A stretch of 64,000 bases of DNA, from the NCBI RefSeq assembly GCF_001458355.1, contig NZ_CYSA01000018.1, forward strand, positions 1 to 64,000, written 5' to 3'. This document shows positions 9,496-16,728 of the stretch, one piece after another. The position numbers were made by a program, and so were the translations under genes. Position 1 is the stretch's first letter, and each line of letters starts with the position of its first letter. The DNA is from Thalassovita gelatinovora. Lineage in GTDB: Bacteria > Pseudomonadota > Alphaproteobacteria > Rhodobacterales > Rhodobacteraceae. The notes beneath the pieces were generated by a model. It did not search any database. It saw only the letters and a program-made list of their open reading frames with translations, and was not told the DNA's origin.

Positions 9496-11751
9496 TCAGC
9501 CTTCGACCCGGGACAGATCGGCAACGCCAAGACAGATCTGCCGGATCCGTGCCAGAAGGTTGAGCCGGTTGCGCCGCACAACGTCATTGTCGGAATTCAC
9601 CTGCACCGCTTCGAAAAACGCATCGATCGGGGCACGCAATCCCGCCATCCCGGTCATTGCGGCTTCGAAATCTTCGGCCTGCATCGCCGGGGTGATCACG
9701 GTTTCCGCCTTGTCCAACGCAGCGAACAAAGCCTTTTCCGCGTCGGTTTCAGCGAATTTCACATCCGCCCCGAAACTGTATTCGACACCGTCTTTTTCTT
9801 CGGCTTGAATCAGGATGTTGTTGGCCCGCTTGAAGCCTTGCAGCAGGTTTTCACCATCATCGGTTTTCAAGAACCCGCCCAGCGCATGGGCACGTTTGAC
9901 CAGAAGCGTCAGATCATCATTGCCCGGCATGCCGAGGCAGGCGTCGATCACGTCATGGCGCAGACCTTCGTCGCGCAGATAAACCTTCAGCCGGTCATGC
10001 AAGAATGCCAGCAAATCGGTGGACAGGTCCGGCACCGCGTCGCCCACCGTGCGCAACAGCGATCCTTCGCCCGTTTCAGGGGTATCTTCCCTATCGTCGA
10101 ACTTATCAAGCACCGCGCGGAAAGCGGCACCGAACACTCCATGATCTGCAATTTCGTCCAGCGTTTCTTCCAGCGCTTCGATTTCGCCCTCATTGGCCCC
10201 TTCGCGGTGCAGGTTGATCTTGTGCTTGAGCAACTGGCTGTCGATGAACTGATCAAGGTTGGCGCGGATATCACCCGCCAGCACGATCCGGATCACCCCC
10301 AGCGCCGCGCGGCGCAATGCAAACGGGTCTTTCGAACCGGTGGGTTTTTCGTCAATCGCCCAAAACCCGGTCAGCGTATCGATCTTGTCGGCCAAAGCCA
10401 CCACTTGGGAAACAGCTGCCGCCGGCACGTCATCGGACGGCCCCAGCGGCGAATAATGGTCTTCACACGCCGCCGCGACCTCGGACGGAAGCCCCGCCGC
10501 TTGGGCGTAATACCGGCCCATCAGCCCCTGCAATTCGGGGAATTCGTAAACCATTTCCGAACTCAGATCGGCCTTGGCGACTTTGGCGGCCTGTTCGGCC
10601 AGATCCGGTTCGACCTGTAGCGCCGGGGCGATTTCGCGCGCCAAAGCGGCGATCCGGTCAATCCGCGCCGCCTGAGTGCCAAGACGGTTGTGGAATGTCA
10701 CGTTTTTCAACTGTTCGGTCCAACGGGTCATTCCGGCCCGGGCTTCGCGCAAATCATTTTCCCAGAAGAATTTCGCATCCGACAACCGCGCCGACAGCAC
10801 TTTCTGATTGCCCGCCAAAATGGTCGCGCCGTGATCGGAGGTTTCACGATTGGCCACGGTTACAAAGCGTTCGATCCGACCGGTTTTGGGGTTTTTCACA
10901 GAAAAGAATTTCTGATGTTCTTTCATCGAGGTCTGTAACACCTCGGGCGGCAGGTCGAGGAATTCAGCCCCGATTTCGCCCATCAGGACCACCGGCCATT
11001 CGACCAACCCCGCAACCTCGGCCAGCAGACCTTTGTCTTCGACCACGTCCAAACCGCTGGCAAAGGCCTGATTTGTCGCGTCATGCCAGATATGGTCGGC
11101 GCGTTCGTGCGCATCCAGGATCACGTGGTCGCGTTTCAGCTTGGCTGCGTAATCGTCGAACCCGGATACCGGGAACCGGCCCGCCCCCATGAAACGGTGG
11201 CCTTCGGTCATGTTACCCGCCTGGATGCCATCGACATCCATCGGCACGATGTCGGCCTCGCCGGCATCATTGGTCAGGATGCACAGGATCGAATGCAAGG
11301 GCCGCACCCACCGCAGGCTGCCCGTGCCCCACCGCATCGATTTCGGCCAAGGGAAGTTGCGAATGGTATTTTCCAGCACCTCGGCCACGATTTCCGACGC
11401 CGGGCGGCCCGGTTTTTCGATCACGGCAAAGAATACCTTGCCCTTCTTGTCGTCGCGTTCTTCCAGCTGGTCGCGGCTGACCCCGGCGCCGCGCAAAAAG
11501 CCCTCGATCGCCTTTTCGGGTGCATCAATGCGCGGCCCTTTGCGTTCCTCGCGCACGGTTGGGCTTTTGTCTAACAACCCCTCCAGCGCCAAGGTCAGGC
11601 GGCGCGGGGTCGAAAAGGCGGCAGCCCCTGCATAGGTCAGACCGGCCTCGACCAATCCATTGGTCACCAGCTTTTTCAGGTCTTCGGCCGCCCGCGCCTG
11701 CATCCGGGCGGGGATTTCTTCCGAAAAGAGTTCGATCAGCAAATCGGGCAT
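9496..11751 (-). CDS. glyS: Glycyl-tRNA synthetase, beta subunit
   Basis: The 751-residue product begins MPDLLIELFSEEIPARMQ, the standard GlyS start, and continues with FSTPRRLTL, RKGPRIDAP, HRFM, the EVAGLVEWP segment, LPPEVLQTSMKEHQKFF and FVTVANRE, followed by a C-terminal DALR-type anticodon-binding region (residues about 640-751). With GlyQ it forms the alpha2-beta2 enzyme that charges tRNA-Gly. The frame extends 35 codons further upstream, but the start at 11751 gives the conserved N-terminus. It sits one base after the stop of the small anchored-protein gene, in the order glyQ, small gene, glyS. Confidence 0.97.
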   Translation of the reverse strand: MPDLLIELFSEEIPARMQARAAEDLKKLVTNGLVEAGLTYAGAAAFSTPRRLTLALEGLLDKSPTVREERKGPRIDAPEKAIEGFLRGAGVSRDQLEERDDKKGKVFFAVIEKPGRPASEIVAEVLENTIRNFPWPKSMRWGTGSLRWVRPLHSILCILTNDAGEADIVPMDVDGIQAGNMTEGHRFMGAGRFPVSGFDDYAAKLKRDHVILDAHERADHIWHDATNQAFASGLDVVEDKGLLAEVAGLVEWPVVLMGEIGAEFLDLPPEVLQTSMKEHQKFFSVKNPKTGRIERFVTVANRETSDHGATILAGNQKVLSARLSDAKFFWENDLREARAGMTRWTEQLKNVTFHNRLGTQAARIDRIAALAREIAPALQVEPDLAEQAAKVAKADLSSEMVYEFPELQGLMGRYYAQAAGLPSEVAAACEDHYSPLGPSDDVPAAAVSQVVALADKIDTLTGFWAIDEKPTGSKDPFALRRAALGVIRIVLAGDIRANLDQFIDSQLLKHKINLHREGANEGEIEALEETLDEIADHGVFGAAFRAVLDKFDDREDTPETGEGSLLRTVGDAVPDLSTDLLAFLHDRLKVYLRDEGLRHDVIDACLGMPGNDDLTLLVKRAHALGGFLKTDDGENLLQGFKRANNILIQAEEKDGVEYSFGADVKFAETDAEKALFAALDKAETVITPAMQAEDFEAAMTGMAGLRAPIDAFFEAVQVNSDNDVVRRNRLNLLARIRQICLGVADLSRVEG

Positions 11752-11752
11752 G

Positions 11753-12280
11753 TCAGTAGCCTTCCGGGGGTGTTGGGCAATCTTCGGGGGCGGGTTCGCC
11801 GTTGAAAACGACCTCGCCGCAATGGTTGATCTGGTGCCAGACATATCCATGACCATCGGCGGTCACCGCGACCACGCGGTCGATACCGTAATGCACGTTC
11901 TGTTGACCGAGAAACGCCAGCGCGTCACCCTGTTCCAGCGCAGCACCCAGCTTTTTAGCATCGAAACAATCGAACCAGCCGGGCGCGACCAAGGGTTCTG
12001 CACCATCATAGATTTCATAGGTTTCGGTCAGCATAGCCTGACTGATCGGCGTGATAAAACAGGCGCGATAGCGGATCGGCGAACTATCGGAATCGATCGC
12101 CTCGAACCCTTCGTAAAGGATCGGTTCCGGCAGGCCGGTGATCAGTGACGTCATCTGCACGTCTTCCGTCCCCGTGGCCACGACCTTGTCATAATAGGCA
12201 TAGACCTGAAGATAATACATGGCCACTCCGGCCACCAACGCCGTCACCACGATGAACCCCGCGAGTAATTTTCCGGTCAT
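11753..12280 (-). CDS. Small membrane-anchored protein between glyQ and glyS (possibly DUF6446)
   Basis: The 175-residue product has a single N-terminal membrane segment ([22 protein letters not shown], split here by its flanks, about residues 3-24) followed by an extracytoplasmic domain with three cysteines at about 74, 103 and 149 and a Pro/acidic end. The ATG overlaps the glyQ stop by 4 bp (ATGA), and its own stop is one base before glyS, so the three genes are translationally coupled. I recall a family of this kind at this place in Rhodobacterales (DUF6446), from memory only. No function is known to me; location between synthetase subunits need not imply a role in charging. Confidence 0.82.
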
Positions 12281-13209
12281 TCTGCCGCATATCCCCCGGC
12301 TTCGGTTTGCACGAAAGCATCGGCGCATTTTTTCGCCAAGGTCCGAACCCGGCCAATATAGGCCTGTCGTTCGGTGACAGAAATCACCCCGCGCGCGTCC
12401 AGCAGGTTGAACAAATGGCTGGCCTTGATGCACTGATCATAAGCCGGATGCGCCATCACGATACGTTTGCCGGTCTTGGGATCGTCATAGGGATGTTCAA
12501 GGATCGACTGGCATTCTGCTTCGGCTTCTTCGAAATGCTTCAGCAGCACGTCAGTATTGGCCACGTCGAAATTCCAGCGGCTGTATTCTTCTTCGGTCTG
12601 GCGAAACACATCGCCATATTTCAGCGCGGTCGGGGATTGCGGGTCGTTGTAAGGCATGTCCATCACATGATCGATGCCCAGCACATACATCGCCAACCGT
12701 TCCAGACCATAGGTCAGCTCGCCCGAAACCGGGTGGCAATCATGGCCACCGACCTGCTGGAAGTACGTGAACTGACTGACTTCCATCCCGTCGCACCAGA
12801 CTTCCCAACCCAGTCCCCAGGCGCCCAGAGTCGGACTTTCCCAATCATCCTCGACGAAGCGGATGTCGTGCAGATCCATATCGATCCCGATCGCTTCCAG
12901 CGATCCCAGATAGAGATCCTGCAAATCGGGCGGGCTGGGTTTGATCAGCACCTGGTATTGGTAATAATGCTGCAACCGGTTGGGGTTTTCGCCATAACGT
13001 CCATCTGTCGGGCGGCGCGACGGCTGCACATAGGCGGCGGCCCAAGATTTCGATCCCAGCGACCGCAGCGTGGTGGCCGGATGAAACGTCCCCGCGCCGA
13101 CTTCCATGTCATAAGGCTGCATCACAGCACAGCCTTTGTTCGCCCAGTAATTCTGAAGCCTCAGGATGATTTCCTGGAAACTACGCGGTTTGGTGATCGG
13201 TTCTGCCAT
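12277..13209 (-). CDS. glyQ: Glycyl-tRNA synthetase, alpha subunit
   Basis: The 310-residue class II catalytic subunit shows the standard features. [17 protein letters not shown] and the [16 protein letters not shown] segment form the ATP/glycine site. [16 protein letters not shown] contains class II motif 2. [20 protein letters not shown] and [10 protein letters not shown] (motif 3 region) follow. It is the first gene of the glyQ-small gene-glyS operon, with a 4-bp overlap to the next gene. The upstream 185 bp to the divergent protease-like gene holds both promoters. Confidence 0.97.
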
Positions 13210-13394
13210 AATCGCTGCCCTGTCGGCCTGTGTGGTGTCGCGTTTTTAATCGCTAGAAATCGCTGGCCCTAACTACGGCCCACATCGCGCGGGGTCAATT
13301 GCAGCCGTGTTCATATTTTGGATGCAAGCCTTTGCTAATTTGATAAAACGTCAATGAAGCGTTCATACTGCGACAGGCAAGGATTAGACGGATT

Positions 13395-15134
13395 ATGATG
13401 AAACTATTGGTTTCGCTGTTATTTGCAGTGATGATGATGACCCGCGCCGCGTTGGCGCAACAAGATCTGGTCTGGGTCCAGATCGAAGCCCAACCGAATT
13501 TGAACACCGCCCAAGACCGCATTCGCGATTATTCTTCGTCGCTTGAGGATGTGAACGGGTTCGAAATGCCGGGCGGCTGGTACGCGATTGCGCTTGGCCC
13601 CTATGCGCGTGACGATGCCGAACAGGTTCTAGCGGTCCTGCGCGCCGAAGGCAAAATACCGCGGGACGCTTATATCGCCTTTACCAACGCCTATCGGCAA
13701 CAATTCTGGCCGGTCGGTTCGGAAATGATGGCACAGGTGTCCCCCGTCACACCGCAGGGTCAAACCACCCCAACAGAAATGGTTGAGCCACAACCGGTTG
13801 TGCAGCAAGACCCCGACGAAACGCCGGCTCAGGCCCGCCGCAGCGAAGCCGAGCTCAGCAAAGACGAGCGCATGCAATTGCAGGTTATGCTGCAATGGGC
13901 CGGATTTTACGATTCCGCGATCGACGGCGCCTTTGGCCGTGGCACCCGCCGGTCGATGGGCGATTGGCAAGCGGCCTATGGCTATGACGCCACCGGCGTT
14001 CTGACCACCCGTCAACGCGCCGAACTGGAACGGCAATATTATGCGGTGCTGGAAGGAATGGACCTGCAACTGGTGCGCGATACCGAGGCGAGGATCGAAA
14101 TGCGCTTGCCGCTGGGCGTGGTCAAGTTCAGCAAATACGAAGCCCCCTTTGCGCATTACGACGCCACCGGCGACATTGACGCAAAGGTGCTGCTGATCAG
14201 CCAGGCCGGCGATCAGAAAACGCTGTTCGGCCTCTATGACATAATGCAGACGCTGGAAATCGTGCCGCTGAACGGTCCGCGGGAACGCGACAAGGACAGC
14301 TTCGTGCTGATCGGCGAAAACGCCAAATTGATCTCGCACACCCAAGCCAGCCTGAAAGACGGGCACATCAAGGGCTTCACCCTGATCTGGCCCGCTGGCG
14401 ACGAGGAACGTCGCAAGCGTATTCTGGGGCTGATGCAGGAAAGCTTCAGCCGGATGGACGGCGTGATGAGCCCGGCCGTCGGCGGCACGTCCGAACAAAG
14501 CGTCGACCTGCTGTCCGGCCTTGAAATCCGCAAACCCCGGCTGTCGCGGTCCGGCTTTTTCGTCGATGCCAAAGGGACTGTTGTGACCACCAGCGAGGCG
14601 GTGCAGAACTGCACCCGGATCACGCTGGAACACGGCATCGAAGCCGAAGTGATCGGCCGCGACGACGCGCTTGGCGTGGCGGTTTTGAAACCCAGCGTGG
14701 CGCTGGCCCCGGCCCAGGTGGCCGCGTTGCAAATCGCCGCACCGCGGCTGCAATCGGATGTGGCCGTGTCGGGCTATTCCTATGGCGGCGTTCTGGGTGC
14801 GCCGACCCTAACCTTCGGTACGCTGGCCGATCTGCGCGGGTTGTCGGGCGAAGAAGATCTGGCGCGGCTGGCGCTAAGCGCCCTGCCCGGCGATGTCGGC
14901 GGTCCGGTCTTTGATGCCGGCGGCGCGGTGATGGGGATGCTGCTGCCCAAGCCCGCAGGTGGCAAACAATTGCCCGACGATGTCAGCTTTGCGCTGGATG
15001 CCGGTGCCATCAACGGGATGCTGGCCGATCTGGGGCTGACCCCGGTTGCGACCGACACCCTTGGGCTGATGGCCCCCGAAGACCTGACCAAACAGGCCGG
15101 CAGCATGACCGTGCTGGTCAACTGCTGGTATTGA
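13395..15134 (+). CDS. Secreted SPOR / peptidoglycan-binding protein with an inactive trypsin-like domain
   Basis: The 579-residue protein has a signal peptide (1-21). A SPOR-like segment follows (about 24-105, WVQIEAQPNLNTAQDRI through YAIALGPYARDDAEQVLAVLR), then a Pro/Gln-rich linker, a PG_binding_1 domain (155-212, LQVMLQWAGFYDSAIDGAFGRGTR) and a C-terminal chymotrypsin-fold domain (about 375-560). In that domain the HtrA-type His position reads VVTTSEAV (Glu401), the Asp position reads DALGVAVLK (Gly427) and the Ser motif reads GDVGGP (Val501). All three catalytic residues are therefore absent. It is likely a cell-envelope binding protein. It is divergent from glyQ and ends at a strong terminator. 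Confidence 0.85.
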   Translation: MMKLLVSLLFAVMMMTRAALAQQDLVWVQIEAQPNLNTAQDRIRDYSSSLEDVNGFEMPGGWYAIALGPYARDDAEQVLAVLRAEGKIPRDAYIAFTNAYRQQFWPVGSEMMAQVSPVTPQGQTTPTEMVEPQPVVQQDPDETPAQARRSEAELSKDERMQLQVMLQWAGFYDSAIDGAFGRGTRRSMGDWQAAYGYDATGVLTTRQRAELERQYYAVLEGMDLQLVRDTEARIEMRLPLGVVKFSKYEAPFAHYDATGDIDAKVLLISQAGDQKTLFGLYDIMQTLEIVPLNGPRERDKDSFVLIGENAKLISHTQASLKDGHIKGFTLIWPAGDEERRKRILGLMQESFSRMDGVMSPAVGGTSEQSVDLLSGLEIRKPRLSRSGFFVDAKGTVVTTSEAVQNCTRITLEHGIEAEVIGRDDALGVAVLKPSVALAPAQVAALQIAAPRLQSDVAVSGYSYGGVLGAPTLTFGTLADLRGLSGEEDLARLALSALPGDVGGPVFDAGGAVMGMLLPKPAGGKQLPDDVSFALDAGAINGMLADLGLTPVATDTLGLMAPEDLTKQAGSMTVLVNCWY

Positions 15135-15223: not shown

Positions 15224-16672
15224 TTATCCACGCCAGAAAGCGACTGTCAGCATCGCATAAACCACCAACAGTTCCAGCCGACCGATCAGCATCGCCAACG
15301 ATAGCACCCATTTCGCGGTATCGTTAAGATCGGCGAATGTCCCCGCCGGACCGATGGTATCGCCCAATCCGGGGCCGATATTTGCCAGCGCCGAAGCCGC
15401 ACCGGAAACCGCGGTGATGAAATCCAGACCGGTCATCCCAAGCACCACAGACAAAAGACCCAGTGTCACCAGAAAAAACACGAAAAATGACATGACCGAA
15501 TTCAGCGCGTCATCGCTGATCTTGCGGCCGTCATAGCGCGGCACGAACACCCCGTTGGGGGACCGTGTTTTCTTCAACTGCGCTTTGATCGAGGCAAGCA
15601 GGATCTGGTAGCGGAATATCTTGATCGAACAGGCCGTCGAGCCAGCGCAACCACCGATCAAACCGGTGAAAAAGAACACCGTGATCAGCAGGTTACCCCA
15701 CGCCATGTAATCGGCGCTGGCATATCCGGTGCCGGTGATAATCGAGGTAATGTTGAACACCGCCTCGCGGAAAGACGTTTCCCAGTGATGCGGAAAGACC
15801 GCCAGTAGCACCAAAGTCGTGAAAGCCACCAGCGCCACCACCACTAGGATAAAGCCATAGACTTGCTTGTCCCGCAGCAGGGCGGTGCGATGGCCGTTGA
15901 CCATCTGGACGTACCGCACGAAGGGAAGCGCCGCCAGAACCATGAAAACCGCAGCCACATATTCCAACGGGCCGGAAAACGCGCTGAAGGACGCATCATG
16001 GGTGGAAAAGCCACCCGTCGAAACCGTGGTCAGCGCATGCACGGTCGCATCGAACGCTTCCATTCCCAGCATCATGTAGGTGAACAGACATGTCAGCGTC
16101 AGCGCAAAATAAATCACCGAAATCTGCGACGCGATTTCTGTTGCGCGAGGCAGAATCTTGCCCATCGTGTCGAAGCTTTCGGACCGGAAAATCTGCATTC
16201 CGCCCACCCGCAATTCGGGCAAGAACACCATCGCCACCACGATGATGCCGATCCCACCCAGCCATTGCAGAATACCGCGCCACAGCAACAATCCCTTGGG
16301 CATGGCATCGAGACCGGTAAAGACGGTCGCCCCCGTCGTGGTCAGCCCTGACATCGCTTCGAAAAATGCGTCCACCGGGCGCGCTTCGGTTTCCCCCAGC
16401 ATGAAGGGCAGCGCACCGAACATCGGCAATGCCACCCAAACGCCCGTGGTCAGAAGGAAGGTTTGCTGGATCGACAGGCCTTCGCGCAAACCATTGCGAC
16501 AGGCCAGCGCGGTCAATCCCCCGATTACCACGCTCAGTATTGCGCTTTCGGAAAAGCTGCGCCAATGGCCATGCCCTTCCGCTATATCGACCAACATCGG
16601 AGGCAGCATGGCCAACCCCAGCGCCGCGACCAGAAGGCCGATCACATACCCGACGGGTCGAAAATCAATCAT
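15224..16672 (-). CDS. trkH: TrkH-family potassium uptake channel subunit
   Basis: The 482-residue membrane protein has about ten hydrophobic helices and the four pore loops of the Trk/Ktr/HKT family: GLTTTGATVFTGLD, TTVSTGGFSTHD, ITGTGYASAD and ANIGPGLGDTIGP. Each supplies a filter glycine. TrkH imports K+ together with a cytoplasmic RCK regulator such as TrkA, which is not in this window. The ATG at 16672 gives the usual N-terminus MIDFRPVGYVIG; the frame remains open 12 codons upstream. It is convergent with the pseudoprotease gene. Confidence 0.93.
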   Translation of the reverse strand: MIDFRPVGYVIGLLVAALGLAMLPPMLVDIAEGHGHWRSFSESAILSVVIGGLTALACRNGLREGLSIQQTFLLTTGVWVALPMFGALPFMLGETEARPVDAFFEAMSGLTTTGATVFTGLDAMPKGLLLWRGILQWLGGIGIIVVAMVFLPELRVGGMQIFRSESFDTMGKILPRATEIASQISVIYFALTLTCLFTYMMLGMEAFDATVHALTTVSTGGFSTHDASFSAFSGPLEYVAAVFMVLAALPFVRYVQMVNGHRTALLRDKQVYGFILVVVALVAFTTLVLLAVFPHHWETSFREAVFNITSIITGTGYASADYMAWGNLLITVFFFTGLIGGCAGSTACSIKIFRYQILLASIKAQLKKTRSPNGVFVPRYDGRKISDDALNSVMSFFVFFLVTLGLLSVVLGMTGLDFITAVSGAASALANIGPGLGDTIGPAGTFADLNDTAKWVLSLAMLIGRLELLVVYAMLTVAFWRG

Positions 16673-16728
16673 GAATGCAGCGATGACCCGGGCGGCACAA
16701 TCTGTCAAGCCGACTTACACATCGTATC

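Follow-up and report, generated by a model that had tools for sequence, protein, structure and literature searches.

The gene at positions 13395..15134 (+) of the window, by which we mean the whole 64,000-nucleotide stretch of Thalassovita gelatinovora DNA that was analyzed, encodes a protein of 579 residues whose HtrA-type, trypsin-like domain lacks all three catalytic residues of a serine protease. Orthologues of this protein, here called the Rhodobacteraceae SPOR/PG-binding pseudoprotease, share the same loss, and by sequence comparison the triad-less state appears to be ancestral to the whole Rhodobacteraceae family. The pattern is wider and older than could be seen in the initial annotation, which was made from the window alone. 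The reading that we favor, with fair though incomplete confidence, is that of an ancient, retained, inactive protease that now serves as a peptidoglycan-anchored, partner-binding protein.

Results

The open reading frame, its coordinates, and the residue letters given in the initial annotation were all found to be accurate. The protein begins with a signal peptide predicted from the sequence at residues 1–21 (13395..13457 (+); MMKLLVSLLFAVMMMTRAALA followed by QQ, the peptide ending in ALA), and Ala21 is invariant in the 30 orthologues compared. A SPOR-like domain occupies approximately residues 25–96 (13467..13682 (+)). The window protein scores below the threshold for the SPOR family (PF05036), but orthologues from two same-genus genomes exceed the cut-off of 21 with a score of 24.9 bits, and in the model the N-terminal region folds in the sequence beta-alpha-beta-beta-alpha-beta, as SPOR domains do. 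SPOR domains characteristically bind denuded glycans of septal peptidoglycan. The PG_binding_1 domain at residues 156–209 (13860..14021 (+)) is matched in the window protein itself (PF01471, E 2e-9, 37.9 bits, above the gathering score of 23).

Residues 226–357 (14070..14465 (+)) have no domain reported by Pfam. When modelled alone, this region gave a pLDDT of 94.5 and a fold matching that of PsbP (Z 12.0, rmsd 3.3 over 126 of 132 residues); further fold matches were to LpqN, MTC28, DcrB, and Mog1 (Z 9–11) and to the T6SS chaperone SciW. Several of the Mog1/PsbP-fold proteins matched are binding or assembly factors. The Mog1/PsbP-like identity refers to a shared fold in the predicted model, and function does not follow from the fold.

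The C-terminal part of the protein, approximately residues 380–549 (14532..15041 (+)), is trypsin-like and of HtrA type. Residues 386–515 match Trypsin_2 in Pfam (PF13365, E 5.5e-13, 50.3 bits, gathering score 27.6). The whole-protein model has a mean pLDDT of 90.9, and its protease domain matches the fold of HtrA1 over 157 residues (Z 20.3, rmsd 1.9), with the HtrA/Deg proteins DegS, DegP, and HtrA1 matching at Z 19–20. The trypsin-like fold is thus kept, in line with the intact frame first proposed. Pfam reported no PDZ domain after the protease domain, and the protein ends approximately 30 residues past the protease fold.

There are two Cys residues in the window protein: Cys406 (14610..14612 (+)), found as Cys in all 155 orthologues and in 34 of 35 active homologues, and Cys577 (15123..15125 (+)), which lies within a C-terminal ..VNCWY motif and is Cys in 152 of 155 orthologues. 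The pair is common to both the inactive orthologues and the active homologues, and probably forms a disulfide bond. Neither the approximately 130-residue Mog1/PsbP-like domain nor the invariant Cys pair was part of the initial annotation.

The catalytic positions were identified by aligning the protein to 28 homologues, drawn from other alphaproteobacteria and including paralogues, nearly all readable and with an intact His-Asp-Ser triad. This alignment places Glu401 (14595..14597 (+)) at the position of the catalytic His, Gly427 (14673..14675 (+)) at that of the Asp, and Val501 (14895..14897 (+)) at that of the Ser, and the residues originally assigned to the triad are therefore correct. Orthologues were defined by the presence of both the middle domain and the protease domain, giving 155 distinct sequences, none of which has an intact triad. 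Position 401 is occupied by Glu in 82, Asp in 31, Gln in 14, Ala in 14, and His in one; besides this last sequence, a further orthologue has a single His at the triad, reading H-G-A. Position 427 is Gly in 143 of the 155, and position 501 is Ala in 102, Val in 20, Thr in 11, and Ser in four. Glu401 and Val501 had been singled out as residues whose conservation should be informative; the loss of the triad proved to be conserved, but Glu401 is not strictly kept and position 501 is mostly Ala. Because the letter at 401 varies, the conserved trait is the loss of the triad, not the gain of Glu401, and the occurrence of the same loss in all 155 distinct orthologues is more than chance. The homologues outside the orthologue group for which all three positions could be read were H-D-S without exception (35/35); the 38 proteins in which no middle domain was detected consisted of these 35, one that ends after H-D, and two orthologue fragments. 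Neither the window protein nor its orthologues thus carry the His-Asp-Ser triad of an active HtrA/trypsin-like serine protease.

The gene is widespread in the family. A match was found in 347 of 394 Rhodobacteraceae genomes, sampled at approximately one genome per genus, and nearly all were full-length orthologues. The weakest few matches are other proteins with just a protease or a PG-binding domain, so the orthologue is present in approximately nine in ten genomes; about one in ten lacks the gene. Elsewhere in the class, beyond Rhodobacteraceae, the protease domain alone was matched. Wherever both flanks were available (68/68 loci), the gene is divergent to glyQ (12277..13209 (−) in the window), behind which lie a hypothetical gene and glyS (9496..11856 (−)). 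The hypothetical protein, at 11753–12433 (−) between glyQ and glyS, is likewise kept in 68/68 loci, and the convergent TrkH-type transporter gene (15224..16708 (−)) in 50/68. The region between the divergent genes (13290–13394) contains a block, like GGGGTCAATTGCA..CATTATTTAAGTGCA..TTTGATAAAA, that is shared by many Rhodobacteraceae loci and is probably a shared promoter or operator.

One of the genomes surveyed (G443) is very likely that of Rhodobacter sphaeroides 2.4.1, because the CenR sites of RSP_1844, RSP_1860, and RSP_1880 (PMC9275681) are at their published positions in it. Its orthologue (450489–452264, chromosome 1) has 593 residues, is 47% identical to the window protein, lies beside trkH and glyS, reads E-G-A at the triad positions, and has both Cys residues; R505 and D514 are its counterparts of Arg491 and Asp500 of the window protein. 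Two tandem TrkH-type genes (L304/L305, G443:C4:447471-450417) are found there where the window has one. A candidate for the orthologue that was rejected is RSP_1880, a PG-binding protein of R. sphaeroides that is repressed by CenR and was recovered in a pull-down with DalA (PMC9275681, PMC10470522); its CenR site and the mapping of the genome show it to be a different gene. None of the tags RSP_1852 to RSP_1857, which cover the neighborhood of the orthologue, appears in the published CenR regulon table, and a literature search with these tags turned up RSP_1852 in two papers and the others in none. Few orthologues have a strict CenR-like site (TGA-N8-TGA) upstream, with 4/69 found versus 2.2 expected; looser patterns gave 3–5 versus approximately one expected. 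Literature searches on the gene itself found no paper and no assigned function.

The protease domain is as well conserved as the rest of the protein. Mean identity among 30 orthologues was 50% for the protease domain, 48% for SPOR, 55% for PG-binding, and 51% for the middle domain, versus 27% for the first linker. The dN/dS ratio of the protease domain was 0.11–0.29 in five same-genus pairs; selection upon it is purifying. The inactive copies have also fixed residues of their own. Arg491 (14865..14867 (+)) is Arg in 144 of 155 orthologues where 31 of 35 active homologues have Gln, and Asp500 (14892..14894 (+)) is Asp in 152 of 155 where 32 of 35 active homologues have Asn; Gly427, Gly485, Thr410, and Pro433 are also fixed in the inactive group alone. 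Arg491 and Asp500 co-occur in 142 of 155 orthologues, and our guess is that they might form a salt bridge. The combination of newly fixed residues and low dN/dS favors conversion of the domain over decay, as had been suggested from its intact frame.

Three orthologues at the glyQ locus depart from the common layout. The one in G031 keeps the SPOR, PG-binding, and middle domains and lacks the protease domain, from which it follows that this domain can be lost; in G422 the protease domain is strongly degraded, and in G483 the SPOR and PG-binding domains are missing. Given these exceptions, no single module is indispensable everywhere. The G031 protein (L233, G031:C12, 7246-8886 (−)) has two SPOR-like stretches and ends in an Ala-rich tail where the protease domain would be, and its genome also holds the active paralogue described below. 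The loss in G031 and the degradation in G422 fit an alternative in which the protease domain is a structural remnant, a disulfide-closed C-terminal cap, and the SPOR, PG-binding, and Mog1/PsbP-like domains are the working parts; so does the dN/dS of the protease domain, which in most pairs slightly exceeds that of SPOR and PG-binding. Few orthologues in the survey show such loss or degradation, however, the domain is conserved as much as the others, and a mere cap would have no need of its own fixed residues. We regard this alternative as unlikely, although it survives better than the others.

In a phylogenetic tree computed with the triad columns left out and read as unrooted, the inactive copies make up one side of a single branch (support 100/99), recovered in 200/200 bootstrap trees. 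With these proteins forming one clade and none of the 155 orthologues having the triad, the possibility that the window protein is a recent mutant of an active enzyme does not hold.

A second Rhodobacteraceae family, with intact H-D-S, has a patchy distribution and was found in 18 of the 195 genomes from the order. Its N-terminal part is co-linear with the inactive family over the PG-binding and middle domains (hhalign 97%, E 2.2e-11, 188 columns), and SPOR-like matches were obtained in three of its members. Compared alone, the middle domain gave no significant match (4%). Several genomes hold both active and inactive copies, and others the inactive copy alone; no active paralogue turned up in the genome to which the window belongs. 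One protein (L202/L228, G551:C166) combines an intact H-D-S with SPOR and PG-binding domains and a weak match to the middle domain, falls at the base of the active clade in the tree, and is possibly a picture of the active ancestor. It was rejected as an intact orthologue, since it does not lie beside glyQ on its 11-kb contig and its protease domain groups with the active paralogues (98/95). The existence of the architecture both with and without catalysis suits a duplication followed by loss beside glyQ. The nearest outgroup of the protease domain consists of alphaproteobacterial Sel1/PG-binding Trypsin_2 proteases with an intact triad and a C-terminal ..ECWK motif. In a broad family of active Trypsin_2 proteases from other alphaproteobacteria (L116–L135), in which Sel1 repeats and PG_binding_1 are common and the C terminus has a ..VECWK motif, a Cys five residues past the catalytic His is kept together with the Cys of ..VECWK.

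The coexistence in several genomes of the inactive copy with an H-D-S paralogue that has PG-binding and middle domains, and in some cases a SPOR-like one, raises the possibility that the inactive protein regulates its active sister, binding the same substrates or the enzyme itself, much as MamO does with MamE. The paralogue is patchy (and was not found in the window's genome), whereas the inactive copy is near-universal; the active paralogue therefore cannot be the general partner, and we give this explanation little weight.

The orthologues were also examined for a replacement triad. H413 is the sole His in the protease domain of the window protein, and the inactive domain has no conserved His, the commonest His column being filled in just 23 of 155 orthologues; therefore no other Ser-His-Asp set can form. 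That other residues carry out a non-canonical proteolysis, for which one might cite the Glu or Asp at 401 in 113 of 155 orthologues and the retained glycines of the oxyanion loop (G499 in 150, G502 in 154, and G503 in 149 of 155), is highly improbable, given this lack of His and a position 501 that may be Ala, Val, Thr, Trp, Ile, Glu, or Arg. Equally remote is a metal-binding role modelled on MamO, a bacterial Trypsin_2 pseudoprotease of the same class that binds metal via two surface His residues (PMC4794232), as the domain has no conserved His pair.

Discussion

With all three catalytic residues lost and the fold kept, the protein most likely binds partners rather than cutting them. The ancestor of the family would have been a trypsin-like protease of the periplasm whose modules ran in the order SPOR, PG_binding_1, Mog1/PsbP-like, and trypsin, and a duplication may have taken place in or before the Rhodobacteraceae ancestor. 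One copy, fixed beside glyQ-glyS, would then have lost His, Asp, and Ser while keeping and re-fixing the fold through Gly427, Arg491, Asp500, and Cys406/Cys577. Judging from its signal peptide, the protein is probably exported to the periplasm, where the SPOR and PG-binding modules would hold it on peptidoglycan, leaving the pseudo-active-site domain and the Mog1/PsbP-like domain to bind a protein partner. This partner would most likely be a cell-wall enzyme or a divisome or envelope protein, recruited or regulated without cleavage, by analogy with DipM or MamO.

A more specific version of this model, which we put forward tentatively and would not ourselves expect to hold, is that a dead HtrA-type protease on peptidoglycan acts as a near-universal cell-wall-enzyme adaptor of Rhodobacteraceae, with the Mog1/PsbP-like domain as a second docking site. 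To our knowledge, such a role is known for dead LytM peptidases (DipM, EnvC) and not for trypsin-like ones.

The protein is the product of a near-core gene in a large and ecologically important family, present in approximately nine in ten of the genera sampled, and its orthologue can be approached in the genetically tractable R. sphaeroides. That catalysis was given up across a family, in a protein that keeps its protease fold and carries peptidoglycan-binding modules, points to a level of regulation in the remodelling of the cell wall. For these proteins, the automatic label 'trypsin-like peptidase' is misleading.

The window protein can be compared with several known systems. It shares the fold of its C-terminal domain with the HtrA/Deg proteases (DegS, DegP, HtrA1) but differs from them in lacking the triad and the PDZ domain and in having other N-terminal modules. 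With the Sel1/PG-binding Trypsin_2 proteases it shares the Cys pair; these differ in their intact triad, in the Sel1 repeats that many of them carry, and in having no detected Mog1/PsbP-like domain. The best-scoring solved structures by sequence are those of MarP (Rv3671c; E 1.8e-7), which also matches in fold (Z 18.9, rmsd 2.0, 29% identity over 157 residues). MarP is a mycobacterial acid-resistance protease, and RipA, a peptidoglycan hydrolase, is among the proteins it acts on (PMC6628586); because this nearest solved relative acts on such a hydrolase, cell-wall enzymes are plausible partners for the window protein. MarP differs, however, in its intact His-Asp-Ser, its four N-terminal membrane helices, and its want of a SPOR or PG-binding module, and the window protein, at 23 bits versus an equivalog cut-off of 250, falls outside the MarP family (NF033740).

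DipM and EnvC are likewise cell-wall proteins of the periplasm with a peptidase domain that has lost its catalysis. In Caulobacter, the dead LytM domain of DipM docks autolysins in its groove and stimulates them (PMC10336132); the dead domain of the window protein is trypsin-like rather than LytM, and autolysin binding by it would be an analogy. A parallel in pattern is MamO, a dead Trypsin_2 protein of magnetotactic alphaproteobacteria that promotes MamE-dependent proteolysis (PMC4794232). Both are alphaproteobacterial, have an HtrA-type Trypsin_2 domain without catalysis that is kept clade-wide, and arose beside an active relative, and the pattern of a MamO-like pseudoprotease, in which a whole clade has lost the triad but retains the fold under continued selection, is found here. 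MamO differs in having a C-terminal TauE transporter domain, in keeping His and Asp with Thr in place of Ser, and in its di-His metal motif, whereas the window protein has lost all three residues, has no conserved His, and carries SPOR and PG-binding modules. The protein therefore belongs to a known class, the bacterial HtrA-type pseudoproteases, within which its four-module layout is what is unusual.
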